Source of the DNA: Peribolospora baueri
Lineage: Eukaryota > Basidiomycota > Peribolosporomycetes > Peribolosporales > Peribolosporaceae
DNA length: 64,000 nt
Direction of reading: 5' to 3'
Assembly: GCA_029717555.1 (NCBI GenBank)
Contig: JAMDHS010000018.1
Span: forward strand, 124,001-188,000
Position numbers and translations under genes: made by a program. Below are positions 5,523-50,599 of this stretch, piece by piece; the first letter of the stretch is position 1; every line of letters starts with the position of its first letter. The notes under the pieces are model-generated. The model saw only the letters and a program-made list of their open reading frames with translations. It searched no databases and was not told the origin of the DNA.

Positions 5523-6131
5523 CGCTTCTGTCCCTTTTAGAAGAGACACGGCGATGTCATCTTCCAGGCGGAATTGGAACCAGGCTGTTCCGTACCCGAA
5601 GGGCCCTGTTTTGAAGGAGAAGGAAAAAGCGAACGTTGACGTCGGCCGGCGGCGATCTGACGGAAGAAGTGTGGGGACGTGCGAGTCGAAACAAGGAACG
5701 CACGAGTCGGGACTCGGTCGGCTCCTTGCCATCGCTGTTCGCTCTCCTCTCCTTCTCTCACCACCTCGGTCGCACGTCGCGACCACCACGCTGCTGTGCG
5801 CTCGCGACGCAGCCATACGATCCGGAAAGCGTCATGGACGCAGCTCCCTCCGCCATCCCCGCCGAGGCGTTGACGACGCTCACCCCGGAGAGCCAAGCCG
5901 CCGCCGCCGACGCCGACGCCGACGCTATATGCTCCCCGGCCAGCACATCGGCCACCGCGCCGACACCGAACGGGGTAGGAGCGAAAGTCGCTCAAGTTCG
6001 AGTGGGAAAGGAAGCGAGAGTCGATCAAGTTCGAGCGGGAAAGGGTTCGAGCGGGAAACGAGAAAGAGTCGATTAAGTGGGAAAGGAGAGAGAGTCGATC
6101 AGGTTCGAGCGGGAAAGGAGAAGAGAAATAA
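5523..6131. other. spacer with an Ala-rich open frame, possibly a gene start
   Basis: The plus strand has an ATG at 5834 opening an alanine-rich frame (PAEALTTLTPESQAAAADAD) that soon turns into a simple purine-rich repeat of GGGAAAG/GAGCGGG units (about 5980-6120). It may be the truncated 5' end of some gene, or chance. It lies head to head with the methyltransferase N-half. Confidence 0.3.
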
Positions 6132-6371
6132 AAAGAGAAGGGACGTCGACGGGAAAGAGACAGCAGGGAAGCAAACCAAAAAACAACCTTTACAATCCAG
6201 ACTCAAGCAGCACCTAGGCGAAAGCGAGCCGACCGCCCTCACCACCACCTCTCCCTCTCCCTATGCTGGGTCAGCACTCCCACCGTCTGGCCTGTCACCT
6301 TCGCCTTGTCACCCGCCCTCACATCATCCTCTGCCACTTTCCCATGAGCTTCCCGGTTCCAGACCCACCTC
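6132..6371. repeat. dispersed repeat, copy 1 (240 bp)
   Basis: This block is almost the same as 21548-21806, in the same orientation, with a few substitutions and a longer A/G tract in the other copy. On the minus strand both copies keep an open frame ending KVTGQTVGVLTQHRERER (copy 2: KMTGQTVGVLTQHRERER) and a stop. They could therefore be duplicated last-exon-plus-3'UTR sequence of a gene, or part of a mobile element. There are no inverted termini or target duplications that I can see. Confidence 0.8.
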
Positions 6372-7315: not shown

Positions 7316-9960
7316 CCTAGAGGCGACCCAGCGTCTGGGAGCGAGGTCGCTGCCGCCGCGGCGGTTCGTCACCGGCGGTGAAGGGTTCGCCGCCCCGGTA
7401 GCGTCTCCTCCTCGTCCTCCTCCCTGAGGCGACACTTGGGCTGAGAGCGAGGTCTCTGTCGCCGCGGTGCGGGCGGTGCGGGCGGCGACCGCCTGACATG
7501 TCTTCGTCGCCGCGGCGCGGGCGGCGGCCGCCTGACGTTTGCGGTGCCACGTCTCGGTTCGCTTTGCCTCCCGGGGCGTCGCCTCGTAGATGGCCCGCGA
7601 GTCGGCGTGAGTGCCGAGCTGCATGCCTGCTCGGCGCAAGGCGGTTTTCGTTGCGGGGAAGGTCCGCAGGTCGGTGGCATCGTTCGCGCCTCGAGCTGAC
7701 TTGAGGCGGTTTCGTCTGTGCCGCCCTCGCCGACAAGACACGGGGGAGCTGCCATGAGTGCTCGTGCGGGCCCGGGGTCTCGATGGCAGCGACATGGTGG
7801 TGTGTCCCCTTGTTGTCCGTGACGCGGCAAGTGCGGGCACGGAAGGAGAGACGACAGTCGACCCGATCCAGCCATGTTGCTGTCATGGCCGCCCCGTTCG
7901 GGAGCCGGATGTCGGCGTCATCGACAGGCCGGGGTGTGACCGGTAGACGAGCGCGCTCTACACTCCTGCTTACGTAGACCCGCGACGCACGACTGTCAAG
8001 CAAGGTGCGAGCGGCCTGGTCGGCGATGGAAGCAGGCACGTAGAAGAGGTCCTGTTGGCTCTTATCACGAGCCGTGGCTAAGAGGACAGAGAGCCGTAGG
8101 TCGTCCTCGTAGCCGGTCTGCCCAATCCGCTCCTCATCGGAAGGGTAGACCGGGACTTCGAAGTCATCATCACTGAGAGACTTCGAGTCAGACGGGGGAT
8201 AGCGGCCGTCTGAGTGGCCGTGGTTCGACGACTGGTCGGACTCGCGCCGCAGGGGGGAAAGAACCGCATTGAGGCGCTCAACGTCCCTCCGGTTCTTGCA
8301 GTTGCGGTACGAGTGGTCACTCTTCCCGCACCCGTAACAAAGGCCCTCTCGCCGACACTTCGCAACCCGTGCGTCCCGCTGCTGCGGGTCACCAGGGGGT
8401 GATAACTGGCCCTTGAGGCGCCGCTCTCCTGGCGGTAGGACCGATCCCCCTGCTGGCTGCCGGAATCAGGACTCATCGGAGGGCGGTGGGTGAGTTCCTC
8501 CAACGGGGCGTGTCGGAGGTCTTGTCACGCGACCGACGATCAGACGGTTGACCGTGCAGTTCACGGTGCTGAGCACTGCTATGGAAGCTAAGAAGAGTGC
8601 GCTCCACTTGGTCCGCGTACTCCATAAACCCGTGGAGGTCCTCCGGCACCGCTCCGGGAGCCGCAAACTGGAGGCGCTCCCACACACGGTTGTGTAGGCG
8701 GCCGCCTCAAACAGGCGACGGAGTTCCTCGTCGCTGGACGGCTGGCAGCGCGCGGCGAGGCGGAGGAACTCATTTGAGCTGGTATGAAAGACCTACAGTT
8801 ACGTAGCGTAGGTGAGGGAATGCTGGTTCGTGTGGAGGACACTGATTTGCCCTCTTCTTTAAGGACGCGGCCTAGGACATCAAGACCTGTGGAGAGCTTG
8901 ACAGGAGCCCCGCGTCGTCGTCGAGGCATCCGTGATGGCTGAACAGTTTATGACCGACCCGAGGAAAGGCGCTGGCAAGAAGGGCTGTCAAAATGATATT
9001 TTTACCGCAAGGGTGAGGGTTCATGAGGGTTGCGCCGCGGAATTCTCGGACGCTGTCAATGACTGCCTGAGAGGGGCATCCTCCAGTCTTGCAGAAGGCC
9101 GTCAGGGTGGAAAACACGGAGAGACGGTCGCTCAGCGTGCCCCATGCTCGATCGATGGGGTCGGCACAAGACCGGACTGGACTGGAGCGTAACTGGGCAG
9201 CGCAACTCTATGGACACCTGCCTCTTCAAAAGCGAGTCAGTGGCAGAGCCCGCGGCCGTTCCAAGAAGACTGAGCAGCTGCGACATGGCTCTGCTCGCTC
9301 TCCTGCCCACTCCGTCGGCCTGTAACCCGTTGTCCTTCAACTGTGCACCGTGGGCCTCACCGGGACCTGGTGAACCACGCATGCAAGCGTGTGCCACCCA
9401 GCTTGGACCATTAAGACGGATGAAGGAAAGAGGAAGAAAAGCGTCACCACGAGCCGGTAACGAGTGATCGACTGTTGTCGGCGACCTCGCAAGGCATCGT
9501 GCTATGCCACATCCGACTTGTCCCTTTGTCCTCTCATGTCCCCTTGTCCTCGCTTGTTCCTTTGTCCTTCCATGAGCACTCGTGTGTATAAAGCAGGTCT
9601 CTCCCCGTCGATCTCGACACTGCGATCTCGATCTTGCCCACGTGATCTACCATTGTTGTGAGAAATCGCAGGGGGTGCCGGGGCTGCGGCAAATGCGATG
9701 GACCAGGACCGACTAGGCTTCAGGTGGACAAGGTGGTAACCGAGCATATTGGCCGACTGTGAGCTGGTAGATGGTGGTGTCTACATGGTGTTCCTCCTCA
9801 CAGGGAGTACAGACAGTAGGGTTCCCATCCTCTATATATACGTTTCTCGAGAGGAATAGGCGCTCGGAGCGTACACAAAGGGGTACGCCGAGAACAATAG
9901 AAGTGATCGACCGCCTAGGAAATAGACGGTCGTAAACGGGGTCGCGACACGGTGATCACA
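7308..9960 (-). mobile_element. Ty3/gypsy LTR retrotransposon, internally deleted fossil
   Basis: Oriented right to left. Parts in order: one LTR (9657-9960), a gag region (about 9200-8080) with a CCHC zinc knuckle of the form CYGCGKSDHSYRNC near 8345-8300, an aspartic-protease region (about 8040-7880) with the LLDS-type active-site context, then directly the Arg/Pro-rich C-terminal tail of pol (about 7720-7310). Reverse transcriptase, RNase H and integrase are absent and no 3' LTR is seen, so the copy is broken with a large internal loss and several smaller breaks. Its tail matches the tail of the second copy at 50170-50460. It sits against the end of the VAO fragment. The single LTR prevents dating by LTR comparison. 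Confidence 0.85.
9657..9960 (-). repeat. 5' LTR of the Ty3/gypsy element
   Basis: Read on the minus strand it begins TGTGATCACCGTGTCGCGAC and ends near CTCACA, in keeping with TG...CA-type LTR ends. A TATATATAGAGG TATA box lies inside (about 9830-9841 on the plus strand). The sequence just inside, TGGTAGATCACG, is positioned like a primer-binding site. The inner boundary is my best reading, not proven by a second LTR. Confidence 0.6.
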
Positions 9961-11101: not shown

Positions 11102-11697
11102 GCGCGGCGATGGGATTGGGTGTCTTTTGGCGGGGTGGCATGGCATGGCATGGCGGGCCGGAGGTCTGACGCAGTTGAGACGAGACGAATGGGATGATCG
11201 AAGCGGTAGAGGTACGGACGGACGAGGAGGATGTGACGCGGAGTCTCGAGGACCTTATCTTGGTCGTTCCATTCATTGGACATATCACCCTTTCGCCCGC
11301 CCGCCGACCGTTCCCTCCCTCTCTTCTCCTTACAAAACGACGTCGTCGTATCTCGTCAAGTCAAGTCGCGTCGCGTCGCGCTTCCCCGCTTGACACTCGC
11401 CGGTTCGGACTTTTTTCTTTTTTTGAATTTCTTCGCATTCTCCACTCGCACCCCTCTGCCATCCTCTTCCTTCCATGCCCGATCTAGTTCGGGCTAATGT
11501 GGGCGTACTCGCTCGTTCCCTGCACACACGCCCCTCGGCGACGGCCGAGGAGAGGGTATACAGGCGAAGGGACGAGGAAACGCAAGTGATGAAACGAAAA
11601 CGAAAAAGAAACCAAAAGCCCGCCGCGCCGCATCTTCAATGTCCGGAGAAGAGGTTCGAACATCTAGAGGTGGTCGAAGAGGGAAGGCGGGACGGCT
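11102..11697. other. convergent 3' spacer
   Basis: This 600 bp lies between the 3' ends of NAA50 (plus) and KPR1 (minus). It contains pyrimidine-rich stretches and no recognisable gene. Confidence 0.5.
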
Positions 11698-13344
11698 TCA
11701 AAGGTTGCCCGCGGCGGGATGCGCCTTCTCCCTCTTGTTGCGGTCGTCGATGGCCTTGACGAGCGTATAGATGGTTTGGAGCACCGGAGTGGAGATGCCG
11801 AGCGCCTTGGCCTTGCGGAGGACGTTGCCGTGGATGACCTGTGGGGGGGGGCGATGGGAGAGGAAGGTCAGAGCGATCCCATTGGAACGGATCCGACCGC
11901 GGAGCGGGAAGTATGGAGACGAGGCGAGCGAGAGGCGCGGGCGGCGAACGCACCTCCACCTCGGTTTCCCTGCCCCTCTTCACGTCCTCCATCATGCTGC
12001 TCATCAGCCCCGCCGGGCCGACCACCTTCTCCTGCGCCCTGGCCCTGCGATAAAGGCGCTCCGGCAGCGCTTCGTCCAGCGGCAAGCCGAGCGCCCTGGC
12101 GACGGCCACGACCTCTGCCATTATCGCGAGGGCAACGTCGATGGAGTGCGGGGCGGAGGCGGCAAAGTAGTATCCGGTGGGGGATTGGGTGACGGCGGTG
12201 ATGCCGTTCCACGCCGCGTTCCACGCCGTCTTCTCCCACCGCTTCGCTTGCATCGCCTGCGGCTCCAGCACGGTGAAGTGTGTGCCGCCGGCGGTGAGGA
12301 GCTTGGAGAAGCGATCGAGACAGGATTGTTCGAGCGCCGTGGGCGAGAAGTGGGCGGCATCGACCGGCAGGAGACCGATTTCCATCGCCTCTTCATTTCG
12401 GTGCTGGACCCGGGCAAGTGTCAGACGAGATAGGTGAGCACGAGGCAGACGCGCAAGTCAGGCGGAAACGAGACCGTTTTGCTCGCTCACCTCGACGACA
12501 TTGTGGGACGTCTGGACGGCCAACGCCCAAGTCTGACCGACGGAGGTGATTTGGGAGATGCGAAGGCACCGTTAGCGAGGCACCGGCGTGTCCAAGTCAG
12601 ATGGATGGATCGGTTGCGAGGACGCTCACTACACAAGTGATGATGGGGTTTTTGGGCCACCTCTGGCGGTAGGGATCCTCATTGCCCACGCCGTTCTGGA
12701 TGACGACGATCGTCGTCCCCTCCTCACCGGCCTCCTCGTCGGTTTCGGTGACGAAGGGCTCGAGCATCTCCGCCGGCGAGGGCCGCGCGTCGGGCAGCGC
12801 CTTGGTCGTGACGACGACGTAGGAGAAGCGGCGTGTGGAACCGGCGAGAGGTCGGGAGGTGGAGGCTGCGGGGAAGACTGCAGATGGGGAGAGGGACAAC
12901 GGGTTCGTTAGGGGGACCGTCGAGCGTGCAGGACACGCGAAGGTTGCTCACGGTCCGCGAAAGGGACTTGATGTTCGCCGAGCCGGATCGACTTGACGGA
13001 GAGACCCTTGGTGGGAGAAAACGCGAGCCACGATCCAATCGCAGTCAGTGCCTGGGGCTCGCGAACGCGCCAGTCTAGAGTCTGGCAATTGGCAAAGAAA
13101 AAAGTGTGTGAAAGGGGGAAAGCGGCAGAGGCTCACATTGTCTTTGACGGGCTCGTAGTTGCTCCTCGCGATCGCGCTCACGTTGACGAGGCGAGAGAGG
13201 TGGAATATGAGAGCGTAGAAAGAGCCGATGCTGTGCGTTCGGAAAGAAGAAAAGTAAAATGAGTGGGGCGGTGGGGGTGGAAGACGAGAGAAGGCAACAA
13301 ACGGCAACGCACGCGCCCAGGCCGACACACAGCACCTCCTCCAT
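11698..13344 (-). CDS. 2-dehydropantoate 2-reductase (ketopantoate reductase), KPR1
   Basis: Seven exons: 13344-13313, 13230-13137, 13006-12952, 12877-12630, 12532-12491, 12403-11954 and 11838-11698, giving 353 residues; an in-frame Met at 13383 would add 13. The first splice builds the NADP-binding motif VLCVGLGAIGSFYA. Later come FSYVVVTTKALPDA, TTIVVIQNGVGNE, the catalytic block WEKTAWNAAWNGITAV (Lys215, Asn219, Asn223, matching the Lys-x3-Asn-x3-Asn of PanE), SSMMEDVKRGRETEVE with the catalytic Glu, and a C-terminal helix bundle. It reduces ketopantoate to pantoate for pantothenate and CoA synthesis. Intron 2 needs an AAG acceptor (13009-13007) to match the paralog exactly; the alternative CCAG at 13084-13082 would add 25 in-frame residues. 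Exon sizes 94, 55 and 42 are the same as in KPR2 at 18.2 kb. Confidence 0.9.
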
Positions 13345-14475
13345 CTTCGCTGGCCTTTTGCAGTCATCGTCGACGGGGCTCATGACCGAGTGTGCTTTCT
13401 TTCTTCTCTTCCTTGAGGCGGCGGCGTGGCGGACGACGATGGTGAGGCGAACGCGACGTGTGCTATGGAAACAGGAGGGGAGGGGAGGGAGAGGAGGGGA
13501 AGACGAAGGGGGAACGTGCGAAGGGAATAGAGGGAGGAAGGAAGGGCGGGGGTTTCAGCCGTCGGGTCGGTCTCGTCGCTCTTCTATCTGACGGCGACGG
13601 GTTACTCACTCACTCCAGCAACAGCAACAGCAACAGACTCTCAACAGCGGTCAGTCCAGCTGAAAGAAGCAGCGACGCAGCGACTCAAGCGACGACGTGT
13701 GAACGGATGGATAGTGTAGAAGGAGCGAATCGAGGAAGAAGAAAGAAGTTATCTTGATCTCCACCTCGCTTCTGTCGGTACCGACCGACCGCGGACGGAC
13801 GGACGGACGATCGGACCGAGGGACCGGAAAGACGGCAGAAAGACGCGGCGAAGCGCGTCGCGACTCTTTCCCGTTTCTTCCCGGCTGGCCTGGGCAGGGC
13901 AGGCGGATGGATGAACGAGATCATACGGTAGATGAGATGAGATGAGACGAGAGATAGTATTCATAAAAACCAGGACAGATGTAGACAGACGGGCGACAGA
14001 GAGCGGAAGGAAAAGAAAGAGAAAGGGAAAGAAAGAGGAGACGACGAGGGCGAGGGCGGGACGAGCGAGGGGAGGGGCGGTCGTGAAAAGCCACGACACG
14101 ATAGGACGATCGAGGCGAATGGAAAAAGTCCGATAGATACGAGAAGGTTGAGGGGAGGTGGTGCTGACGTAGAGGGGGGGAAGGGAAAGCCGACGTCGAT
14201 GAGCCGGTCGAGTGAGTTGGGAAGGGGAAAGAGGGAAAGAAAGAAGAAAGGAGACAAGACGAGGCACTGTCCGCGAATCGAACAACAACCGACCGAAGCC
14301 GACCCACGACCCACGACGACGGCAAACCGACAAACTACCGAACATACCAAGGCGAGAGGGAGAAAAAAAAGGAAGGAAAAAGAAAAAGAAAAAGAAAAGG
14401 AAAAACTGGATTGGGAGGATTAGGATCCATGCCGTGGTCACTGCTCACTCAACCAAGAACTTTGAGCGGCAAGGG

Positions 14476-14678: not shown

Positions 14679-16590
14679 TCACAAGAGGTGCTTCTTGCCC
14701 GCCTCCTTGCATCTCGCGACGAGCTTCTTGACCTCTTGGCTCCTAGCGTGCGTCGTGACGAGAAGCGCATCGGGCGTATCGACGACGACAACGTCGTCGA
14801 CGCCGAGGAGGGCGACGACGCGCCCTGCGGCGGGGATGACGACGCCGCCAGCGACTTTCTCCGTCACCACGAGCGAGTGGTCGCCGAGGATGCGCGGCTG
14901 GTGTGGCTCGGCGGGGAGCATCTCGGCGAGCGATGTGAAATCACCCACGTCATCCCAGCCGAACGTGGCGGGCACGACGGCGACCTTGCCCTCGGCCGCC
15001 GCTGGCTCGGCGACGGCGTGGTCGATGGCGATCTTGGGCAGGTCGTGCCAGTACTTTTGGAAGGCCTCCTCCTTGGCCGCCTCGGTCGCCTTGGCGTCCT
15101 CGAGCACGTCCGCGATCTGGTTCAAGCCCCGGGCGAGGTTGGGCTCGTACTTCTCGAGGAGGTCCATGAGGACGGTGGCCTTGACGACGAACATGCCCGC
15201 ATTCCAGCGGTAGTCGCCCGTGGCGAGGTACTTTGCCGCCGTGCGCGCGTCGGGCTTCTCCTTGAACTGGAGCACGGTGCGCGCATTAGGCGACTCGTGC
15301 ATGCCCAGCTTGTCGCCCAGCTTGATGTACCCGAAACCGGTGGCGGGAGAGGAGGGGGCGATACCGATGGTCACCAGGTGGCCGGCGCGGGCGACGGCGA
15401 CGGCCTCGACGACGGCGTGCTCGAAGGCGTCCGCGCCGCTGATCATGTGGTCCGCCGCAAAGGAGCCCAGGACGGCCTCCGGGTTACGACGGGCGAGCAC
15501 AGCGGCGGCGAGGCCGATTGCGCCGGCCGATTCACGCGGTGAGGGCTCGGCGAGCAGGTTGGCCACTTGCAGCTCCGGCAGTTGGTCGCGCACGCCCGCG
15601 GCATGGCGCTGGCCGGTGACGACGACCAGGCGATCGGGGCCGGAAAGAGGGAGGAGACGGTCTAGGAAGAGAAGTCAACCATTGAGCGAACGTCCGCGTG
15701 CGCTGGTCGAGCTCTAGCAAAAGGGCCACTCACCCCACGTGTTCTGGATGAGCGTCCTGCCTCTGCCCGTGAGATCGAGCAAGAACTTGGGACACGCCTC
15801 CCTAGAGAGGGGCCACAAGCGGGTGCCGGCGCCGCCGGCGGGGACGACGGCCCAAAAGTCCTTGATGTCGTACATCTTGCGGGGCTCAATGGGGCGGGCG
15901 AAGGGGGACGAAGGGGGTTGGAGGAAGAAGGCGGGCGGTTGGGGGAGGCCGGCGACGCTGGTCCGGGGACTGGTGACGGGACTCCTGCCGACGCCGTTCA
16001 AGTTGGGAAAGCCACCAGGGCTTGGACTGTTGCTGTGGTGTTGAGAGTACTGGCCATGTGGGTGGTGTCCGCCGGGGACGCCGTAGCCGTAGCCGTTGGC
16101 ATGGCCGTTGGCGTGTCCGTTGCCGGTGCCGGCGCTGAGCGAGGACTTTACTTGGCGCTCCAAGTCGATGTTGGACTGGCGGAGGTCAGCGCACTCGTGG
16201 CGAAGGGAGGCAATGTCGAGTTGCTGTACGGCATCGAGAGGACGGGGGTGTGGTGAGCCAGGAGCTACGCAAGTAGTCGAGCAAGAAAATGGGGGGGGCT
16301 GGGATTGGGGCAGCGGGGCTCGGGCGGTGGAGACATATGCGCCTATATAGGTATCTTTCTATCTATCTATCTATCTATCTATCCTCCCACCTTCTTCCTT
16401 CTTCCGTCTTCCTTCCCCGCCTGGTCTGACCCGGATCGTCCAGATGCGAGAGCACGTCGTGGGAACAAGGGAAGAAGGTAGGCGGATGACAAGGGGAAGG
16501 GAAAGGTAAGCTCACCGACTTCTCGAGCATGGCCACGATCTGCCTGAGCATGGCGTCGGTGGAGTCGCCGGGGGCGAGGGGAGCTGCCAT
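14679..16590 (-). CDS. mannose-1-phosphate guanylyltransferase, ManC (bacterial) type, with coiled-coil N-terminus
   Basis: Three exons (16590-16516, 16223-15734, 15661-14679) give 515 residues. Residues 1-55 form a short helical coiled-coil region (DAMLRQIVAMLEKS, SLRHECADLRQSNIDLERQV). A Gly/His/Asn/Pro-rich linker of about 75 residues follows, then the catalytic domain from about residue 145: AVVPAGGAGTRLWPLS and PKFLLDL (nucleotide binding), FAADHMI, TGFGYIKLG, QFKEKPD, YRWNAGMFV, FGWDDVGDF. This is the COG0836/ManC pattern, not that of the eukaryotic PSA1/MPG1 enzyme. It makes GDP-mannose from mannose-1-phosphate and GTP for glycan synthesis. No phosphomannose-isomerase domain follows, unlike many bacterial fused forms. 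Horizontal origin is possible but not shown here. Intron 1 (292 bp) is long for this window and carries a TCTA microsatellite. Confidence 0.88.
16358..16383. repeat. (TCTA)n microsatellite
   Basis: About six TCTA units lie in the first intron of the guanylyltransferase gene. No coding effect. Confidence 0.9.
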
Positions 16591-18196: not shown

Positions 18197-21006
18197 ATGG
18201 AAGAGAGCGTTTTGGTGTACGGCTTGGGAGCGTGAGCATCCGTCCCCCTTCCTTCTCCTCTCCTTTTTCGCTTTCTTTCTTTCACTCTACTGTGCGACTG
18301 TACGCTAATTCTAACTACTACGTCTCCTCCAGCGTCGGCACCTTTTACGCCTCCCTTCTCGCCCGCTCCGGCTCGGCGCGCGTGAGCGCCGTGGTGAGGA
18401 ATGACTTGGAGTACGTCAGGGCCAAGGTGCGTTGAGGCAGCCGAGGCTGCCCTTCTTCTTCAACACGACACGCATGACTGGGTTCTCTTCCTCTTACCTC
18501 TCCCTCGTACCCCATCAGGGCCTGACCATCCGGAGCAAGGCGCTTGGCGAACAACGTTTCTTCCTCGACGAAGGTGAGCCTCGCACGATGTCTTCATTAG
18601 TCGCTTCGGCTCCGCTCCGCGCCTCTCTTTCGTCTCCTTCCTTCACCTCTCATTCCCACTCGCTTTTCTTTCCCGCAATCCCACACCGCCCGTCGGCAGT
18701 CTTTTCCTTCAACCGACCTCCACCCACAACCCGCCGCTCCTTCTCCTTCATCCTTGTCACCGCCAAATCCGTCCTCGACGCATCCCCTTCCCTGCCCGAG
18801 TCGCTCGAACCTTACGTCACCGACGGGGAGACGACGATCGTACTGTTGACGAATGGGATGGGAACGGAGGAACTCATTACGGCTAGGTGGCCTAGGAACG
18901 CCGTGTTGGTCGGCTTGGTGAGTTTCAGGGACGGCGTATGCAACGACATATGCGGATGCAGGACCGTGGATGGCCGCCGCGGACATGGATCGGTCTAACG
19001 TTAGAGAACGTTGGGAGGAAAGGGCCGCTCATAAATGCGTTTAAACCCATTCATTTGGCTCCTGCAGCCGTGGGTTGTCGCTACGAAGGTAGACCCAGGT
19101 GTCTTTGAGGTGAGCGAGCGTCCTTGTCCGACCTCCCGTCCGACTTGCATTCAACCGAGGCCTCGATGTTCAAACAATCCCTTCCTGATACGCATACTCC
19201 CTCCCCCCATCTCCTTCCTCAGCACGCCAACGACCAAGGCCTCGAACTCGGCATCCTCCCTCGCCAAGGCGACGCCACTTTCGCCGCGGACGAGTCCCGC
19301 CTCCACGTCTTGGCAGCGCTGCTCCGTCGCGGCGGCGCCGAAGTTGACGTGCTCGAACCTGCGCGCCTTGCGCAGCGGAGATGGGAGAAGCTCATCTGGT
19401 GGGGCTTTCACAGATTTGCACGGATGGCTGAGGCGCCTTTCGGATGGTCCCTCCAACCGGACTGACCATTAAATTTCCTTTTCTTTCCCCCTTTTCTGCG
19501 TTCTTTCGGCCGACTGGCAGGTCCTCCACCTGGTCCGCATGTACGTCGCTCTCGATGCTCCTAACCGGATCATTTCTATCCTCCTCGCCCGAGGCACCCA
19601 GGGCTGCACTCAAGCTCATGGACGAGCTCATCTCCGTGGCGAGGGCGGCAGGTGTGTCACTCAGGGAAGGTCTGGCGGAAGACATGCTCGCGAAATGTCA
19701 GCGTGTCGGCGCGGGCTCGGCTGGTGGGGTAGGGGAAGAGGGGATGAGGACGACGATGATGGACGATGTCAGAGCGGAGAGGAGGACCGAGGTCGAGGTA
19801 AGTCGCTGCGGTCCCCGGTTCGCTACACTTCGCGCGTCCGTCTGCGTGCTGACAGCCTTACGTCTTCAATTCTCGGCATTTTAGGCACTCCTCGGGTACC
19901 CTCTTCGCAAAGCTCGCGAATTGGGTATTACCACGCCCGCGCTAGAGACGAACTATGTCCTGCTCAAGGCGATCGACGAGCGCAACGCGAGATCGCGCGA
20001 GGAACGCAAGCGCTTCCGGTCTCCGAAACGCGCCCGTCACCTGCAAGCCTACTCCTCGTCCTCCGGCGCCGCCGCCACTGCGTTTCCAAGGCCGGACCGC
20101 AGTCCCGATAAGCTTTCTATTGTTGTCGAGGGGATGACGGGAGAGAAGCGCAAGGCAATGACGCCACCGCAAACCGACCTCCGTCCTTCTTCCCGACCTC
20201 CTCCGCCGGCGAGACACTCTGACGCGGAGGGCGGAATGCCCGCCACGCCGGGCTCGGGATCCGTCTACTCCTTCCTCGGGCCTTCGCCTTCCATTGTCGG
20301 CGTCTCTCCCCATTCCCCTTCTTTACCCCTCGCCCGACCCTCCTTTGCCGCTTCCCCCACCGCCTCCATGTCCCGCGGCATCGCCGCCGCCGCTGCCCCC
20401 GCGCCCAGCTCGACCTCCTCGCCGGAGCGCAAACGCCGCCGCCGCACCACAAAGGCCGAGTCCGCGTTCCTCCTCGAAGCCTTCGCGGAGAACCCGTTCC
20501 CGGACGCGGCGCGGCGCAGCACGCTCGCTCAGGCGCTCGGCATGAGCGCGCGCGCCGTGCAGGTGTGGTTCCAGAACCGGAGGAGCGCGGAGAAGCTTCG
20601 CGCGGGGAGGTACGATCCGGCGAAGACGAAGAGGGAGGACGGAGACAGAGACGGGGACGGGGACGAGGAGCATGGCGGGTGGGGTTTGGGGGAAGGGGAG
20701 GACTGGAACGAGGAGGGGAATGGGGAGGGGGGAAGGGAGGTTCGAGAGCGTGGGAGCGCAGACGGTCATCGCGAGCTTTGGGCAGAGGCGCCCGAGCAAG
20801 GCCTACGGCGAGGCGGGCAGACACCGACGAGGGGCTCCCGCTCGCACCATCTCGCCCACGACACCGGCGGTGGCTCCGAGGACGCGAGCCGGCCCGACGC
20901 CGCAGAGTGGACAACTGGCGCGGCCGTCGCGGCGGCTGCGGTTGCAGCATCGGCATCGGCTTCCGGCGTCGAGGTTGGCTTGGCCGCGCCCATCGAGCTG
21001 TCCTGA
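18197..21006 (+). CDS. ketopantoate-reductase-like protein (KPR2) fused to a homeodomain
   Basis: Eight exons (18197-18231, 18333-18426, 18519-18573, 18700-18917, 19068-19109, 19223-19398, 19521-19797, 19885-21006) join in phase to 672 residues. Residues 1 to about 345 follow ketopantoate reductase KPR1 exon by exon: NADP motif VLVYGLGAVGTFYA, FSFILVTAKSVLDA, TTIVLLTNGMGTEE, WEKLIWSSTWSACTSLS, RTEVEALLGYPLRKARELG, AIDERNARS. The last exon does not stop there. It continues without a stop through about 130 low-complexity residues into a homeodomain at about 483-542 (RRRRTTKAESAFLLEAF, ALGMSARAVQVWFQNRRSAE), then an acidic and Ala-rich tail. Catalytic Lys204 and the late Glu remain, but the two substrate-side Asn are Ser208 and Ser212 and the Ser pair before the Glu is Thr. 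Binding of NADP(H) without normal reduction, coupled to DNA binding, is inferred. An independent homeobox gene starting at an internal Met (e.g. 20134) cannot be excluded. Confidence 0.8.
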
Positions 21007-21547
21007 TGCGGGTACTTTGAGAAGAGCGTGAGGTCTCTCTCTCTCTCTCTCTCGCTGTCTCTCTTTCTTCCGTTTCGCCCTTCTTCCGTCTTCAGATCCC
21101 ATTTCGAATTCCTCCACCTCGTGTGTCCATCTCGTCGATGGCCCCTTTTCCCGCACATACCATTTTTGAGGCGGCAGGATTTGTATCGCCCACCCGCATG
21201 TGACCTATCTATACTATACGTGCGGTACGGTACGACTGCTATCACTATATACTAGTGCTCGGCCCTCCTCGTCCCCTTCCTGGCGATGCGTGACGTGATG
21301 GGCATGGAAGGGAAGAGAGAGAGGCCCAGTGAACGCTGATGCTGAAGCGGGAGGCGGAAAGAAGCGCTCTGCCGCTGGCTGGTCGGCTCAGCTCGGCGCC
21401 AGAGTCAAGAGTCAGACAGACGGCTTCAAACGAGGAGGAGCTCTTGGCCATGTTTCACCTCCCTTCCGTCGCTTGGTCTGGAAGTGAAGTGAAGTGATAT
21501 GGTGTGATGTGATTGATAGATAGAGGACACATGAGGTGGAGAGATAG
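21007..21547. other. 3' flank of the fusion gene
   Basis: Contains a (CT)n run at about 21033-21065 and T/C-rich sequence, probably the 3' UTR and terminator of the fusion gene. No gene seen. Confidence 0.45.
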
Positions 21548-21806
21548 AAAGAGAAGGGACGTCGACGGGAAAGAGACAGCAGGGAAGCAAACCAAAAAAA
21601 AGAAAAAGAAAAAGAAAAAAACCTTTACAATCCAGGCCAAGCAGCACCTAGGCGAAAGCGGGCCGACCGCCCTCACGACCACCTCTCCCTCTCCCTATGC
21701 TGGGTCAGCACTCCGACCGTCTGGCCTGTCATCTTCGCCTTGTCATCCGCCTTCACATCATCCTCTGCCACTTTCTCATGAGCTTCCGGGCTCCACACCC
21801 ACCTCC
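21548..21806. repeat. dispersed repeat, copy 2 (about 259 bp)
   Basis: Same orientation and near-identical to 6132-6371. The shared start is AAAGAGAAGGGACGTCGACG and the shared end lies near the sequence ACCCACCTC. This copy has an expanded AAAAAG tract. As in copy 1, what follows on its right side is different sequence, so the block moved or was duplicated as a unit. Confidence 0.8.
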
Positions 21807-23486
21807 TCGACCTTCCTCTAGGCGCATCCTGCAAAGCTGAATGCGCAGTCTGGCCCTTGTATGCTCCGCCATTACCCTCGACACCACTGGGAGCGAACGG
21901 CGCTCCTCTGCTGCCTCTGGCTTTGGCGTTGCCAGAAGAACAGCAAGCTGGAGCCCGGAATGCTTGGGGTGCAAGTAGACGAGGCTGCTGCGCTAGCCGT
22001 CATAGCAGGCAACCGATCCTGGTCCAATTCAATCGCCATCGCATCCGGGTTGACTTGTTCCGAATCATTCGAGGCGGAGCCTTGTCGCGACTTGGAGAGG
22101 AGGGTTGAGCGGGTCGAGCGACGGAGAGCACCGGAGCGCTCAAGTGTACAGTTGCTTCGTCGAATCTGGGGTCGACTCCACGGACAGTCCCGTTCCACCT
22201 CTTCCGAACCTCCCAGCGTCGCGTTTGGTGAGCACGGTGGGTAATGTCCAAGGCGGTCAGCGACGCCACCACCTTTGAATGCTCTCCCTGGGGCACCCCC
22301 GGCCAGTACGGGGGCCGATCTTCCCACTCACCTCGGAAGTCCACCCTCCCACGTCGAATCCCCAAGGTCCTGCCCGCCCTCGCCTCCCTCTCCGGACTCG
22401 CCTTCGCCTACATTTCACCTTCCGGCCCTGAATCCCAGTACATATCCACCCTTCCATGACTATGGTCATCGCTCAAGGCGGCCTCCTACCCCCCCCCCCC
22501 GTCTGTCGACCACACCCAAGCCTACGCAGACCAGACCCCAGATGGATACCGTCGAATGTGGCTGCGCCCCAGCTGGACGTGCTTCCGCATCTGAATGCGG
22601 CAAACAGGACGGAGACATGAGTTGTAGCGCCTCCGCTCTCTCTGAGACGGCGAAAAGGGACGGGGCGACTGGCTGCATTGAGCAGGCAGACTCTGTCCAA
22701 GGGTGCTTTCCGGCTGATCGCGACAGACCACTGAGAGACGGCGGGTTGGATGAATGCGGTAAAGACGGAGAAGCGAGCAAAAGAGGACAGCGGCAATTCA
22801 GTTCTTTCGCTTCCGAGCCCTTTCGCCCGAAGCGGAACGAAGATCGCCCCGCTCACCGGTGTACCGGCTGAAAGTGCTCGCGCCGATGAAGGGGCGGATG
22901 TCCTGACCTCTGGCGTGAAAGTATACAGACTTGTCCGGCATCAGGCCTTGGCCTTGTGTGGCTCGGACGCGCTGGCATAGGTTGGTCTGCATTGCCAAGC
23001 CCCGGCCAAAGGAAGCGGGGAGAGATAAACTCGGTACAATCGCACCAGGCGGTGCTTCCTCTTGCCTTCCCAAACTTGCAGCGGGAAGAATGCAGACAGA
23101 ATTTCAGCGATGGACGACGCGCTGAACTGAATCGGCGCCGCTTCGATAGGGCGTCTCCAAAACGAGCGCTTCACCGTGCACTCCCTACGTTCCGCAGTGT
23201 AAAGCAAGATGCTAAAGTCGCTTGGCACTTCACCCGCAGATTCAGACCGAATGGGGCACGCTGTCAGAGGCGACTCACGGCTCTTGCGCCTTCGTGACCT
23301 GCGACAAGCAGAGACGTCGCTGTCGACATTGCATTCAGTCACTATCGGAGAAATTAAGGGCGGCGGGTTAGCAGCTTTTCACCCGGGATGCAAACAAGGA
23401 AAGGCATTTACTGGATTCCGTCCGCAGTGGTGGTATAATATAAGCTGATAGATGGTGGTCGTGTCGTCCCATAATGCAAGTGATGC
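21807..23486. other. unassigned region with short coding-like stretches
   Basis: No family recognised. Coding-like stretches on the plus strand are about 21940-22240 (KLEPGMLGVQVDEAAALAV) and 22290-22440 (IPKVLPALASLSGLAFAY). On the minus strand about 23070-22860 carries MQTNLCQRVRATQGQGLMPD. They do not join into one gene that I can defend, and may be remnants. A run of 12 or so C lies near 22490. Confidence 0.35.
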
Positions 23487-23764: not shown

Positions 23765-25560
23765 GTTGGTTGGTTAGTTGTTCTGTTTAAAGTCCATATA
23801 TACAGGCCGGTTTCGGCCTAAAGGGACTCCCCCACCTCCCACCTGCCAAAACGGAGGGGAAGGCAACTGGATGCTGGCGGTAACATGCACATCCAAAGCG
23901 GGGTGAGTGAGCGATCGGCTACAAAGGTGGCGTGGTGCCGGCGTACCTAGCTGCCGTCCATCCCGTGGCGCTATCCAAGCCTTCCAAGAGCTCCCTCTCG
24001 TGTTGGCGCTTGGCGCGGCGGATGGCAGTCTTGAGGCGTCGATGCGCGACACGCAGCTCCTCGCGCGCTGCCACTTCGTACGCGGAGCCAGGCTCGAGGT
24101 GACGGAGGATGCGTTTGCACCGCTTGACTTCGCGGACGAGGGGGTTGAGCGTATCCGGATCCCACCATCGTTTAGAGTAAGCCGACCATCCTTTCTTGGG
24201 GACGTGCGCGTTGCCCGCGGTCTTCACCTCCTCCTTCCCAGCCTCAATACATAGAACAGAGGCGGGTCGGCTGTGACGGCAATCGCCCGACGAGCAGCCC
24301 TGGTTGTCGGCGCAGACACACTGGCGGAGCAAGTGGAAAGATGAGGCGCATCTGGTGCAGCGGGGAGTAACTGTACAGTGGACGGTCGTAAGAGCCACAC
24401 CGATAGCACTGGCGAACCGTCTGCCTCGCCTTCTCGACCACCTTCATTTCGCTCTCGACCGCGAGCCCGTGCAAGATAGCCCGGTTGGCCATCTCTTTGG
24501 TGCCGACGAGGACAATTAGGCTTGTCCTTGCGCGGGCGTTGGGGCCTTTGGCTCTAGTGGGAACTGCCCATCGTGCCTTGATGATGTCCCTCCTTGTAAG
24601 GCCATTGTCGGCCGCGAACTCGTCCAGGCACTCTTCGCTCTCTGGGACAAAAGTCGTCGGGACGTTGTGGATGATGACCGGGTAGAGACGGGTCTTCAGC
24701 TGGAGGTGTTCGCTGAGGTGCCCTACCCAGGCCTGGTCGGTTGAGAGGCGAGCGGCGTCCTCTTCCTTGAGGAGGTGGACGGCAATCTCTTTCGATTGAG
24801 GGCGGATCGAGAATGCAGAGATTGGAATGTCCTCTCCCCCGGTGGACTTTATCGACGACTGAATACGGTCTCTGAGCATGGTGGGAGCGAGGTCGACAAG
24901 GTCGGGTTTGCCGGGATGGCGTTGCGCCAGGATGATCGTAGGGAATGAGGTGCGGAGGGTCGTGGATTCCGTGGTGGACGTGTAGAAAGAGTACCCGCTC
25001 TTAGCAGCGTCCCCGTACGACCTTTCGCTCTTGCAGGAGGGCGTTCTCGAGCCGCCGTTGTCCTGTGGAGACGCATCGCTTCCTGTGCGCGGGCCACTCT
25101 GCTAGCGATGGTGTCCTTGACCCGGCTCATCTGGGTGTCAAGCTGTTCCAGCTTGAGCAGCATAGTTTTAAGGCCTGCCTGGATGGCTGCCGTCCTGTCG
25201 GCTGTGGCCGAATGAGCAGCTGCGACGATGGCGATCTGGTCGAGGAGCAAGTTGAGGTCGATGAGGGTCGCCTCTTCGACAGTTGCTTCCGCGTTGGCAG
25301 TCTTTTTAGATCTCTCCAAAACGGGCTGGAGGATCTGAACCGCGGTCAGGGCTAGTAAGCCAATGTCGTTGGGGTCTTGGACAAGGTGGCGCACCCTGGT
25401 GCTGGGGGTCTGAGATAAGACTGACGGGTTGGGGGCAGGGGTGGGAGTGACCTCGCGTGCTGGGCGCGCTCGCAATGAGGTCGAGATTTTCGTCGGTGCC
25501 CCGCGTAATGGCCTGGGGGCGAGGCGCTGTGGTGGCTTTGGGGGGCATACAGATGGGGCT
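23686..25560 (-). mobile_element. non-LTR retrotransposon (LINE, Tad1-like), ORF1 plus 3' end, ORF2 mostly deleted
   Basis: Read on the minus strand, ORF1 starts at about 25548 (MPPKATTAPRPQAITRGTDE), with a frame change near 25475. It continues through a helical region (VQILQPVLERSKK, LEQLDTQMSRVKDTI), a gag-like domain (VGHLSEHLQLKTRLYPV, ARTSLIVLVGTKEMANRAI) and a Cys-rich zinc-knuckle region (CYRCG, CTRCASSFHLLRQCVC), again with a frame change. It is followed directly by a basic segment KRWWDPDTLNPLVREVKRCK, which in these elements lies between the endonuclease and reverse transcriptase of ORF2. Reverse transcriptase is missing. The 3' end has a conserved short stem-like sequence and a (CAAT)n tail. 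It is an inactive, internally deleted copy inserted 285 bp before a histidine-phosphatase gene. Confidence 0.8.
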
Positions 25561-30935: not shown

Positions 30936-33900
30936 ATGTACATATATGACGAGGAACGAGAACAGATGGCGCTTGAGGAGCATCGTCGGCTTGGCCAGGC
31001 GCAGAACGGTGACCGTGACGGTGACGACGACGACGATTACGACGACGACGACACCCAGGGCCCCTTCTGCCTGTGTCGCGGGCCGGATGATAAGGAGTCG
31101 CCCATGATTTTCTGTGATGGTTGCGAGGACTGGTGAGCGTTTGTTATCCTCCCTTTTCTTTCTCTAAGGGGGACGGGACCTTGGTCTCTTCCCCCTCTTC
31201 CTTTGCAAGCCTGCGCGTGAGTGTGGGCGTGTCTTTCCCCGTGCGGCCGGCAGACCTGTCCTGACGATGTTTGTCCGTTCCTCGCTCCCAGGTTCCACTT
31301 TCGATGCATCGATCTCTCCGAAGAAGATGCGGAGACGATCGGACAGTATTACTGCCCCAATTGCACCGCGAGGACCGGGCTGAGGACCAAGAGTGAGTGT
31401 GGATGCGTTGCCAGTGGCCCGAGGGAAATTATTCGGGTGCTGATCAGACCATGCCGCTATTCCTCACTTTCTTCAATCAATCAGAAATATGGGAACTACC
31501 GCCTTCGCAAGCTGGCTCGGACTTCGATGACGCGGACGACGAAAACAGAGAGGCTGCACCATCAGCAGCCGGAGAAGACACCGAGAAGATCAATAAAGGA
31601 AAAGCGCCGGCAGCCCGCAATGCGAGCAAGGGCGTCTTAAGGAAGAGTGCAGGGACGAGCACGGCGAAAAAGGGCGTCCAGAAGAAGGCCGCCGGAGTAG
31701 CCAAGACGGGAAAGGGGAGCAAAGGCCAACGGCGTGCGCGCTCTTCAACGCCTCCGGAGGATGAGGAAAGCTCGGAGATGGAGATAGAGGAGGACGCTGA
31801 TGATATCGATGATGAGGACTATGTGGAGAAGGAGGAGAACACTGCAAAGAACGTGAGTAGACGACGACTTCCGTCAAAGCAACCGCACTCCGATGCTGAT
31901 GCGGCCAACTCCCTTTTGTCGTACGTTTTGTGCTCCTTCTAGGCACTTCCTGCACCCTCGAAATCACCTACGATCCCGTCTCCAGCGCACGTCAGCAAGA
32001 AACCGCCATCAGCGACAAAGCGAAAAGCGTCCATTCCAGCTGACGACGCGTCACGGGGGAAGAACCGTCGGACCTCAATGAGCTCACGCACTTCGGCCTC
32101 GCCTCAACACGAGCGGGAGGGTCACGGCCAGAGTCAGGACAAAGGCGCCGGGAAGGCAGGGACGTCGGATTCGGCCCATGCCGACCCTGTGCGCACACAT
32201 TGCTTGGAGCAGTTCAAGACGACGCTTAGGGCCATTTTCGCTTCCAGCGACGCAACAACCCAGGCGGAGGGGGATAATTCTGTGGTGTCTGCCTCGGAAC
32301 AAGCAGCGTTAGAGTATGCCACTTCCTTGGAAAGCGCGTTGTTTGAGCTGCACTCGACCTTGGACGCGAAGACGCGGCGGCGCGTGCCGTCGCACTTCTA
32401 CAAGGAGAAGTTCCGCTCGCTCTTTTTCAACCTGCGGGACCGGAAGAACACATTACTGCGCACGCGTATTGTCTCCAACGGACTCTCTCCCTCTGCCCTC
32501 GCCAACGCATCCAGCGCCGATCTCGCCAACGAAACACTGCGCAACATGGCGGAGAGCGTTCGAAAGGCGAGCATGGCCGATTCGATTAGGGAAAAACAGA
32601 AGGGTCCGATCACCAAGATGACCCACAAGGGCATGGTGATGATTGAGGACGGTGCGATCACGGATGGCGGCGGCTCGACGAATAGGGAGACGGAGGCGGT
32701 GGCAGAGCCAATTGAGCCCATCATCCATGGACCCGTCAAGCGTGATTCCATCTCCGGTACTCTTCAGAAGAGCCCGATTACGCCATCGAGGGAGGATTCT
32801 CTTCAATCTCCCACTATAGGCTCAGAAATGCGGTTCTCGAGAGATGAATCGCTTGACCGTGGTGGCCGTGATTCGCCTCCGCAGGCTCACGGCCGAGAGG
32901 GAGGGCGTGTTGGCTCGATCAGTATGGATCAGCGGTCTCCGGCGGCGGCGACGCATAGGGCGTCTTTCGACCTGTCTTCAGTGTGGGCATCGGTTAAGGC
33001 TCATGCACCGGCGCACGAAGAGGTAGGAGAGGCGGGGGCAGAAGCGAAAGCAGAGGGAGAGGGAGGGCATGGCTCTGCTGGAGAAGCGGCAAGTCCAGAG
33101 GGTGATATGTCGGCGGCCGATATCGAAGAGAAAGAAGAGAAGGGGAATGTGGATGAGGAGTATGATCCTTTCGATTTCGAGGGCAAGGGTCGAGGGAGCG
33201 AGATGGACGACATGGACATCGACGACATCCTCAATCCAGATGCGGTCAAGTCTAACGCTGGGGAGCAGCCAGCTGATCAGGGCGACTCTGCCGCGCCTGC
33301 CGACGCCGATGTGGCAAAAACAGCTTGCGCTGGTGCTGAAGTACCGAAAGTCGCTGAGGCACTCGCCACATCCCCTCCGCTTCCCGTCATCTGGCGAGGC
33401 AAGATCAGTCTCCCAGACGAAGGGGCCTTCCCAGCACAGGTAACGCAGGTGGGCGGACGTCCGCTGGGCGAGGCTCCGGATATCTGGAAGCATTTTTTCC
33501 CCACGGACTCGCTCACCATCGAAGGACGCGTGCCTGTCGAGCGTTCGTCTGAGTATCTCGTCCAATCTAGACTGTCTTCCAAGACCGAGCTTGTCCTCCT
33601 CGCTATTCGTCTGTCCGACGACACCCGCGCTGACGATGACGCCGCAGCCGCTGCCGCGCGACGGCAGGGAATGGAAAAAGTGCTTCACTTTCTCAAACAC
33701 CGTTCCCGCTACGGCGTCTTCCTACCGCGAAAGGAGAGCAAGGCCACGGTGAAAGATTTCTATCTAGTGCCGCTGGAGGAGGAGGACCCTCTGCCGGAGT
33801 GGGTAGAACTTCTGGAGAACCATAAGGTGCTCGAGAAGGGGAGAAGGGTGGGGGCCATGTTCCTCGGGGTAGCTGTTTTGCATAAGACGGCGTTCCAGCC

Positions 33901-35071
33901 CAACCAATCCGCACAGCCGTCGTCGTCTGCGCCGGTGAGCAACGCGCCACCGTCGTCCAGCGGCCCAGCCAAGCCTGTCGTCCTCCCTCCGGGCCCTCCG
34001 CCCAAGCCGCCGACTTTCCCCGCCCCGACCGCCGCATCGATCGCTCCTCCCGCCGTACCGGGCTACACACCGTCATCGACATCGGCGCTTGCACAGTCGC
34101 AGTGGCATTCTCAACCTGGATCCTCTCTCCCACCGGCCACGACGATGCCAGCCGCACCGCCGAATCTTTCAGCTCTTCAAGAGCTGCTCAAGACCAACCC
34201 TGATGTCCTTAAGAGCCTTCTCAACACCTCTGGCGGCGGCACGGCTTCGACTGGCGACGGTCACGGCGCATCGGCGGCTCAGGGAACCACCCACAGTCTG
34301 GGACGATCGACCGCCCTACCGTCTGCGGCTGCGTCTGCGGCTGCCCCTGCTCCCCCGGGTGCCCCGCCCGCCTTACCACCCCAGCTCGCCGCCTTGGCGG
34401 CCACCCTGGCGGCCCAAGGTGGCGGCGCCTCGGGCGGGTATGACCCTCAGCAGCGGCCGCCAGCACAGCATGGATCCTATTCCCACCCGTCTTCACTCCT
34501 CGGCGGAGGACTGGGTTCTTCCTCCCCTTACACTGGCGCATCTTATGACAGTGGCACAGGCGGCGGCGGGTACGGTCCTACGGCTTCTTCCCAAAGCAAG
34601 GGAAGTGAGGGCGACCGTTTCGGTGCCGCCGGTGGCGCCGCGCGTGGTTGGACGAACGAGCGTGGCGGAGATGTGCTTGGCGAATGGCATCGACCGAACG
34701 GGGGGTCCTATGGTGGAGGTGGAGGGGAGTATGCGCCGGGGCCGCCGGGTCCACCTCCGGCAGCGCCCGGAGGGAGGGGATACGACTACGACTACGACTA
34801 CGACTACGACTATGGGCGCGGGCCCGGCCCTGGGCGGGACTATGGGTACGGTGGAGGCTACGGTGAGAGACGAAGGCCCAAATACGATGACGGGGCACCA
34901 CCACCACCTCCCCGGGACTACGATAGGGATGGTTATGCAGACGACGGCCGTGGGGGAGGAAGTGTTGGGGGCTTCAGGAGAAGCGGTGGAGGCGGGCGAA
35001 GCGCTAGGGGAGGGCTCCGTGGAAGGCGCGGGGGCGGTTTTCGCGGCCGAGGGAGGGGCAGAGGATATTGA
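30936..35071 (+). CDS. PHD finger / TFIIS central domain / SPOC protein, Bye1-like transcription elongation regulator
   Basis: Exons 30936-31132, 31292-31392, 31485-31852 and 31943-35071 give 1264 residues. Order: an acidic Asp run, then a PHD finger at about 48-98 (FCLCRGPD, MIFCDGCEDWFHFRC, YYCPNC), basic Lys/Ser-rich region, TFIIS central (TFS2M) domain at about 305-460 (CLEQFKTTLRAIF, VPSHFYKEKFRSLFFNLRD, MTHKGMVMIED), SPOC domain at about 700-870 (VIWRGKISLP, YGVFLPRKES), Pro/Ala-rich stretch, and a Gly-rich tail with Asp-Tyr repeats (34782-34812) and RGG/RGR ends. Yeast Bye1 has the same PHD-TFS2M-SPOC order, binds H3K4me3 and RNA polymerase II, and acts in the nucleus. The long Gly/RGG tail goes beyond Bye1 and suggests RNA binding or condensate behaviour (inference). 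An upstream in-frame Met at 30870 is possible. Confidence 0.92.
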
Positions 35072-48484: not shown

Positions 48485-50460
48485 GAGGTCACGCAAGACA
48501 TTCGTTGTGCAGTGGTGCTACACAACCTCTTGAAGGAAGGTGACGCCGACTTGCGCAGGAAGCGATTTCGGTCGATCCACTGGACCGCCCAGTGTGAGAG
48601 CGCCTTTCAGGACCTCAAGGCCGCACTCACTGCGGCGCTAGTCCTCGCTCTGCCTGACCTCGAGCGACCGTTCACCATCGAGACTGACGCCTCGGACCTC
48701 GCAATTGGCATGGCGCTCTTGCAGGAGTCACTCGCCGACCACAAGCTTCACCCAGTGGCCTGTGATGGCCGCAAATTAACCGCAGCCGAGCTCAACTATC
48801 CGGTCCATGAGAAGGAGTTGCTCGCTGTTAAGCATGCCCTACGGGTGTGGCGCCCATACGTCGACAACGGCTGCACCGTCACCATCCTCACCGACCACGA
48901 GAGCCTCAAATACTTGAAGTCCGTTCAGGCGCCATCCAAGCGCCTTGCGAGGTGGATAGATGAGTTCGCGGAGTACGACCTCGACATTCACTACTGGCGC
49001 GGGCACGACAATGTGGTGTCCGTTGCCATCAGTCGCCGCCCTGACTTCTTTCTAGCGATGCAGGCAACCGACTCTTTCGAGAGGTTCATCGCTACGCTAA
49101 CGGCCTACCTCACGACGGGCCAGCTCCCAGGCAAGAGCGACTCAGGCGATCAGGAACTGCGCGACGCCGCTGGTCACTATGCCATGAACGAGGTGGGAGT
49201 CCTATGCCGGAAAATCGACGACGGTGGGCTCGCGCCATACGTACCCCCGCTTTTCCGACGCGCCTTTGTCGAGAGGATGCATTCGGCTTACGGGCATCTC
49301 GGGCACCCCGGCCTTGGCGGCGAAGCGACCAGGAGCGCGAGCGGCACCAGGTCATGGCCAAGGCAGCCATTGCTCCCTTTGAGCGATGGGGCATTGATGT
49401 GGTGGGACACCTCCCCACTGGGGTCAGTGGCAACGAGTACATCATCACTGCCATTGACTATGCGACGGGATGGGTCATTGCGAAAGCGACGAAGTCCGTT
49501 AAGGCACGCGACATTGCCGACTTCCTGCATGACAAAATCGTCATGCAATTCGGCGCCCCAAGCGAGTTTGTCTCTGACCAGGCGAGAACTTCTTGGCGCC
49601 AGCTGTCGAGGCGTACATGAAGCGCCTCGAAGCAACTCATCATGCCGCGAGCGCATACCACCCGCGCACTAATGGCAAGGTGGACAGCTTTAATGGCACG
49701 TTCGGTCGCATGCTCACCAAGTAAAACCACGGGCCAGCCGTCAAGCTTTGGGACCAGTTGATCAAGCGGTCTTCGCCTGCCGTGTACGTGCACGCCACCA
49801 TGCGGTATTCGCCCTTTCACCTCGTCTACGGGTTTAAGCCTCGGTTGCCCTCGACGCTCCCGGCGCCAACCTCGGGGACGCTGACTTAGACAAGCGTCTC
49901 AAACGAGTTCACACCGACCGGCGCCTTGCCACGCGCAGCGCTCGCGGCAGCACAAACGCGGGATGAAGTTGTCCGAGAGCACACTCTGAATGTTGGCGAC
50001 ATGGTGATGGTTCGGAACGAAGCCCCGCAAAAGCTGGAATCTCTGTGGTTTGGGTTATACCGCATTACCAAGCGGCACCGCTGGGCACATATGCCCTAGT
50101 TGACCCAACCAATCGCCCCTTGCGGTTCCTCGTTCATGGAAACCGCCTCAAGCCATCTCGCGGCGCGAACGGTGCCGCCGACTTGTGGACCTCCCCCGCA
50201 AACAGAACCGGCTTGGGCCGAGCAGGGATGCGGCTTGCAACTCACGCCGACTCTCAGTCTGTCGATGCGGCGACGCTCCGGGAGGCGACCCGAGACCCGG
50301 CCCAGGACATCCTCGGAAAGCGCGCATCCGCAGGCCGCCCAGAAGCGCAGGCAGACGTGGCAAAACAAACGTCAGGCGGCCGCCGCCCACGCCGCGGCGA
50401 CGAGGACCTCGCTCCCAGACGCTGGGTCGCCTCTAGATGGAGGAGGAGGAGGCGCTACCG
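48485..50460 (+). mobile_element. Ty3/gypsy pol fragment (RNase H, integrase, C-terminal tail), fossil
   Basis: Begins with the end of the reverse-transcriptase/RNase H linker and carries RNase H (about 48560-49050; FTIETDASDLAIGMALLQ, LTDHESLKYL), the integrase core (about 49290-49700; GIDVVGHLPTG, YATGWVIAKATKS) and the Arg/Pro-rich pol tail (50170-50460), which matches 7310-7720 of the other copy. No LTR, gag, protease or reverse transcriptase is seen, so it is a truncated and broken piece with several breaks. It lies within the ABC transporter remnant. Relative age is hard to judge: decay is comparable to the copy at 7.3-10 kb. Confidence 0.85.
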
Positions 50461-50599
50461 GAGCGAAGAACCCTTCGGCTCGACCTCGCATCCGCCTGCG
50501 CCCACACTCCTTGCTGTTTCGACCCATTTTCGCTTCTACTCCGTCGCGCGTCTTGCGCCTCACGCTCCCTACCGACTTCCGACATAGCGCTCGAATGGG

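Follow-up and report, generated by a model that had tools for sequence, protein, structure and literature searches.

Does a single gene of the fungus Peribolospora baueri encode both a ketopantoate-reductase-like domain and a homeodomain, and if so, what might its product do? The window, that is, the whole stretch of DNA analyzed, was 64,000 nucleotides long (contig JAMDHS010000018.1:124001-188000, label C88), from a genome of 22.1 Mb in 178 contigs. Spliced translation of positions 18197-21006 (+ strand) returned 8 exons and 672 aa, arranged as a reductase-like part (KPR-B), a linker, a homeodomain and a tail. The exons (18197-18231, 18333-18426, 18519-18573, 18700-18917, 19068-19109, 19223-19398, 19521-19797 and 19885-21006) splice together in phase, giving 672 residues followed by a stop codon, and the 7 introns (87-150 nt) were each GT..AG. 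A sequence-only reading of this locus had counted eight exons closing in phase to 672 residues, and spliced translation bore this out.

Domain matches in the fused protein were far beyond chance. The ketopantoate-reductase-like part (aa 1 to ~329; 18197-19974, + strand; exons 1-7 and the start of exon 8) was delimited from Pfam, TIGR00745 and PDB relatives, with ApbA at residues 5-160 (6.6e-24, 84.7 bits against a Pfam cut-off of 22.2), ApbA_C at residues 198-329 (1.8e-25, 90.1 bits against a Pfam cut-off of 22.7) and the NCBI subfamily model TIGR00745 (apbA_panE) at 8.1e-48 (163.2 against a cut-off of 141.35). The last exon, exon 8 (19885-21006, + strand), is one open frame of 373 codons that carries the reductase C-terminus, linker, homeodomain and tail. 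The homeodomain (aa 481-536; 20428-20595, + strand) was matched by Pfam PF00046 at 4e-15 (55.8 bits against a cut-off of 22.9) and recovered at the same position in a whole-genome scan; it is near-complete, with 56 of the 57 profile positions matched, and has the WFQNRR recognition-helix motif at residue 527. The single 373-codon frame and the Pfam match also agree with the earlier statement that the last exon holds the C-terminal helices of the reductase and a homeodomain with no stop. As an observation at the level of sequence, reductase and homeodomain in one open spliced frame are confirmed.

Directly after the reductase lies a basic stretch, RKRFRSPKRARH (aa 340-351; 20005-20040, + strand), which by its sequence and position may serve as a nuclear localisation signal. 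This stretch, which adjoins the reductase end in the fused protein, is missing from KPR-A, a stand-alone reductase paralogue 4.8 kb away (11698-13383, - strand; spliced translation, 7 exons, 366 aa, own stop; Pfam ApbA/ApbA_C). To the 3' side of the homeodomain, an acidic stretch with tryptophans (aa 549-595; 20632-20772, + strand; 17 D/E and 6 K/R by composition) is a possible activation region. Between KPR-A and the fused gene, a nucleotidyltransferase (14679-16358, - strand; NTP_transferase and ManC/GMP-like beta-helix) was observed, probably a mannose-1-phosphate guanylyltransferase.

Similarity of the fused reductase to KPR-A extends to about residue 333, within exon 8, and the frame is then open to 21006, through a linker rich in S, P, A and G (aa 334-480; 19987-20427, + strand) that has no stop. 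Openness alone is not rare, as the same frame was open by chance in 18.5% of 20,000 first-order Markov resamplings of the 447-nt linker. Codon usage, scored for the linker and for control stretches after training on 2,321 codons (some of them from the fused gene), failed to tell coding from non-coding DNA. The stronger argument for fusion is that an intact eight-exon reductase is followed by neither an in-frame stop nor a GT[AG] donor before the homeodomain. A concealed GT-AG intron in the linker was ruled out, since none of the 14 GT dinucleotides between 19960 and 20480 is part of a GTA or GTG donor. GTA sites are found earlier in exon 8 (19896 and 19925), within the conserved reductase end, and were rejected as donors because their use would delete conserved reductase helices. 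Between 19960 and 20480 there was likewise no match to the poly(A)-like strings that were tried. DNA comparison gave no relatives of the linker elsewhere in the genome, and at the protein level there were only two weak matches (E 0.25 and 0.88).

Counter-evidence to fusion came from two GC-type donor-like sites in the linker, at 20006 and 20043, the first pairing with an acceptor at 20102 to form a candidate non-canonical GC-AG intron (20006-20102, + strand; 97 nt) within the size range of the fused gene's own introns. Its removal would stop the reductase 17 residues past KAIDERN, with the homeodomain dropped, and the product would be about as long as KPR-A, which stops 12 residues past KAIDDRN, the counterpart of KAIDERN. 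Also against fusion, the homeodomain might be produced by itself from the in-frame Met461 (20368-20370, + strand), given the composition upstream: C+T make up 82% of the 100 nt 5' of this codon, compared with 53-70% ahead of four other start codons. The locus could on these grounds be two neighboring or overlapping genes, the reductase stopping by way of the GC-AG intron and the homeodomain being expressed from a start inside the frame, for instance Met461. Open frames 5' of the presumed starts of two other homeodomain genes (on contigs C135 and C138; 97 and 106 codons) fit such an arrangement, as does the location of the paralogous reductases and homeodomains of this genome on different contigs. 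We nevertheless regard two genes as quite unlikely. GTG or GTA opens every one of the 13 introns modelled for the fused gene and KPR-A, so a GC donor at 20006 would be the sole exception, and its context (AAC before GCAAGC) is one that we take to be weak; moreover, one frame runs stop-free from the reductase into the homeodomain, and a basic stretch directly after the reductase suits a nuclear protein. It is also conceivable that a sequence or assembly error, or decay of the gene, underlies the open frame, a missed base masking a stop or a shift of frame between reductase and homeodomain. A one-base frame change after the reductase would reach a stop (the other forward frames end at 20111 and 20137), but with eight exons in an intact frame, canonical introns and conservation of both domains, this is highly improbable.

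Clues to the origin of such a fused gene lie in the same genome. All 6 introns of KPR-A match introns of the fused gene in alignment column and phase; the fused gene has one more, at the asparagine site considered below, and KPR-A is without it. Identity between the two reductases is 40.8% (336 aligned residues), suggestive of an old duplication. The whole-genome homeodomain scan gave five loci, the closest to the fused homeodomain being that on C135 (L023), with 63% identity over the homeodomain query and an RYDP extension common to both. The C135 protein has no reductase domain, and its homeodomain is nearer the N-terminus than that of the fused protein. Over 66 codons the two homeodomains differ 21, 15 and 32 times at codon positions 1, 2 and 3, a pattern expected for a maintained protein. 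Given the shared introns and own stop of KPR-A, together with the reductase-free C135 homeodomain, a duplicated reductase seems to have acquired a homeodomain tail. ApbA_C matches in the genome were C33, C87, C174 (partial), KPR-A and the fused gene, and a weak ApbA match on C112 was below the cut-off; among contigs with matches, C88 alone bears both a homeodomain and a reductase.

The partial copy on C174 (L027:5300-5973) is a 701-bp copy, 94.4% identical, of the 3' part of KPR-A alone, last intron included (window positions 11689-12389). As its protein match is interrupted between KPR-A residues 281 and 294, this copy has probably arisen by partial duplication and decayed. That C174 might be a second haplotype with another copy of the fusion was ruled out: over the 30 kb compared, only these 701 bp of KPR-A were matched, and none of the 5 homeodomain matches was on C174.

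To see what the reductase part has retained, the fused copy was aligned to E. coli PanE. Arg31 of PanE has a role in NADP binding. The fused copy retains the GXGXXG motif (as GLGAVG) and Arg34 (E. coli Arg31), as well as Lys84 (Lys72), Asn113 (Asn98), Lys204 (Lys176) and Glu297 (Glu256), and the Lys-Asn-Glu triad is present as Lys204, Asn113 and Glu297. Ser244 of PanE is Thr in the fused copy, and the substrate-holding Asn180 and Asn184, taken as marks of a functional ketopantoate reductase, have given way to Ser208 and Ser212. KPR-A, the partial C174 copy, C33 and E. coli PanE have both asparagines, as do the PDB relatives 8iwg, 3i83, 3hn2 and 3hwr (4 of the 4 whose alignments cover the site); C87 keeps Asn180 only, and the fused copy is alone among the copies compared in having neither. 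Roles in ketopantoate reductase are given for Lys176, Asn98, Glu256, Lys72, Ser244 and Asn180 in PMC3478992, and for Asn184, Ser244, Asn98 and Lys176 in PMC10127515. As the asparagines are kept in C33, a separate PanE-like gene, and lost in the fused copy, C33 is more likely to be the pathway enzyme, and the fused copy to have taken on a changed role.

On this basis, a transcription factor that derives from a reductase and binds NADP(H) is a plausible and, in our view, the best reading of the locus. In its full form, we tentatively favor, with somewhat less than even confidence, a duplicated reductase-like gene that was joined in frame to a homeodomain tail and now makes one nuclear, dinucleotide-responsive homeodomain transcription factor. 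A duplicated fungal ketopantoate-reductase-like gene would have been joined in frame to the homeodomain tail, and the fused protein would enter the nucleus by means of the basic stretch after the reductase and bind DNA through its homeodomain. The reductase cleft would open and close on NADPH/NADP+, whether a 2-oxoacid ligand takes part or not, and this movement would alter how the protein pairs, how far its basic stretch is exposed or how it binds DNA, such that transcription would track the redox or metabolite state. For such a movement there is a parallel, since NADP+ binding shifts the conformation of ketopantoate reductase enough for a FRET probe, NADPsor (PMC7662651). NADPsor is like the proposed factor in exploiting an NADP+-driven conformational change of ketopantoate reductase; unlike the fused protein, it is engineered, with fluorescent proteins in place of a DNA-binding domain.

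It had been proposed from sequence that the fused protein reads NADP(H) or a pantoate/CoA-pathway metabolite. The first part is plausible, as the nucleotide-binding motifs are kept and NADPsor offers a parallel; the second is weaker, with both asparagines lost and C33 present, and the existence of this separate PanE-like gene makes a reading of NADP(H) likelier than one of pantoate. The last exon alone was also modelled with AlphaFold2 from a single sequence (mean pLDDT 51.8). In the model, one helix extends from the end of the reductase into the basic residues 340-351, the three helices of the homeodomain are formed, and the linker is mostly of low confidence; a disordered linker counts against tight coupling of reductase and homeodomain. 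The fusion may be real and the reductase a non-sensing leftover or pairing platform on an ordinary homeodomain factor, or it may be still catalytic, with the homeodomain only a nuclear carrier. The length and low confidence of the linker and the loss of the substrate asparagines speak for this, and retention of the catalytic Lys, Asn and Glu would allow activity on another 2-oxoacid. We consider it rather unlikely, as the whole reductase and its NADP-binding positions are intact despite only 40.8% identity to KPR-A, suggesting continued use of the fold and of the cofactor site.

Fungal Pan5 is a member of the PanE/ApbA ketopantoate reductase family. With this family (E. coli PanE, TIGR00745) the fused protein has in common both Pfam domains, the Rossmann motif and the Lys-Asn-Glu triad; it differs in the serines at Asn180/Asn184 and in the added C-terminal linker and homeodomain. 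KPR-A, unlike the fused gene, has its own stop and keeps both asparagines. CtBP, NmrA and Gal80 are dinucleotide-sensing regulators that bring reductase-like folds into transcriptional control, and they belong to families other than that of the fused protein; to our knowledge, none of them carries a homeodomain of its own. For the joining of an enzyme to a homeodomain in general, ceramide synthases set a precedent. CERS2-6 and Drosophila Schlank, like the fused protein, are described as combining a metabolic enzyme and a homeodomain in a single chain, and Schlank is reported as a transcription factor whose homeodomain binds DNA (PMC13294678, PMC6025876). These differ from the fused protein in that the enzyme is unrelated, is a membrane acyltransferase and is found in animals. 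Among the 8 Pfam families matching the fused protein at E up to 1, there was neither a TLC (Lag1p) domain nor an NmrA or 2-hydroxyacid dehydrogenase domain.

That no fusion of a ketopantoate reductase to a DNA-binding domain had been described was also part of the sequence-only reading, and the text available from an open-access literature search, outside which most subscription papers fall, names none. Relatives of the homeodomain were sought in two collections not expected to include fungi, and there were 0 among 74 pattern stretches in viral_contigs and 0 among 595 in genome_contigs. It is possible, if doubtful, that the protein is the first natural case of a homeodomain transcription factor containing its own NADP(H)-binding reductase domain, in which a duplicated reductase that lost substrate residues and kept cofactor binding would link redox or 2-oxoacid state to target genes. 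If made as predicted, it would directly connect NADP(H) or a metabolite with fungal transcription within one polypeptide chain, and would clearly exemplify an enzyme that has become a regulator. As the un-fused paralogue and the homeodomain's nearest relative are still in the same genome, a before-and-after comparison is possible.

Several other features of the locus were recorded. A dispersed repeat (21539-22500) begins about 530 bp past the stop of the fused gene, with related pieces on nine contigs including C88, one of them in the window at 6123-6371. A 382-codon frame (7317-8465, - strand) without a Pfam match at 0.001 contains the motif CYGCGKSDHSYRNC, presumably zinc-knuckle-like, and is possibly a retroelement remnant; positions 7380-7713 within it have a 72% identical counterpart on the opposite strand at 50139-50476. 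A 285-codon frame (24244-25101, - strand), likewise without a Pfam match at 0.001, gave the impression of a retroelement gag remnant. A STE3-type receptor was present, and a 1042-codon frame (31943-35071, + strand) has TFIIS central and SPOC domains and is assumed by us to be Bye1-like.
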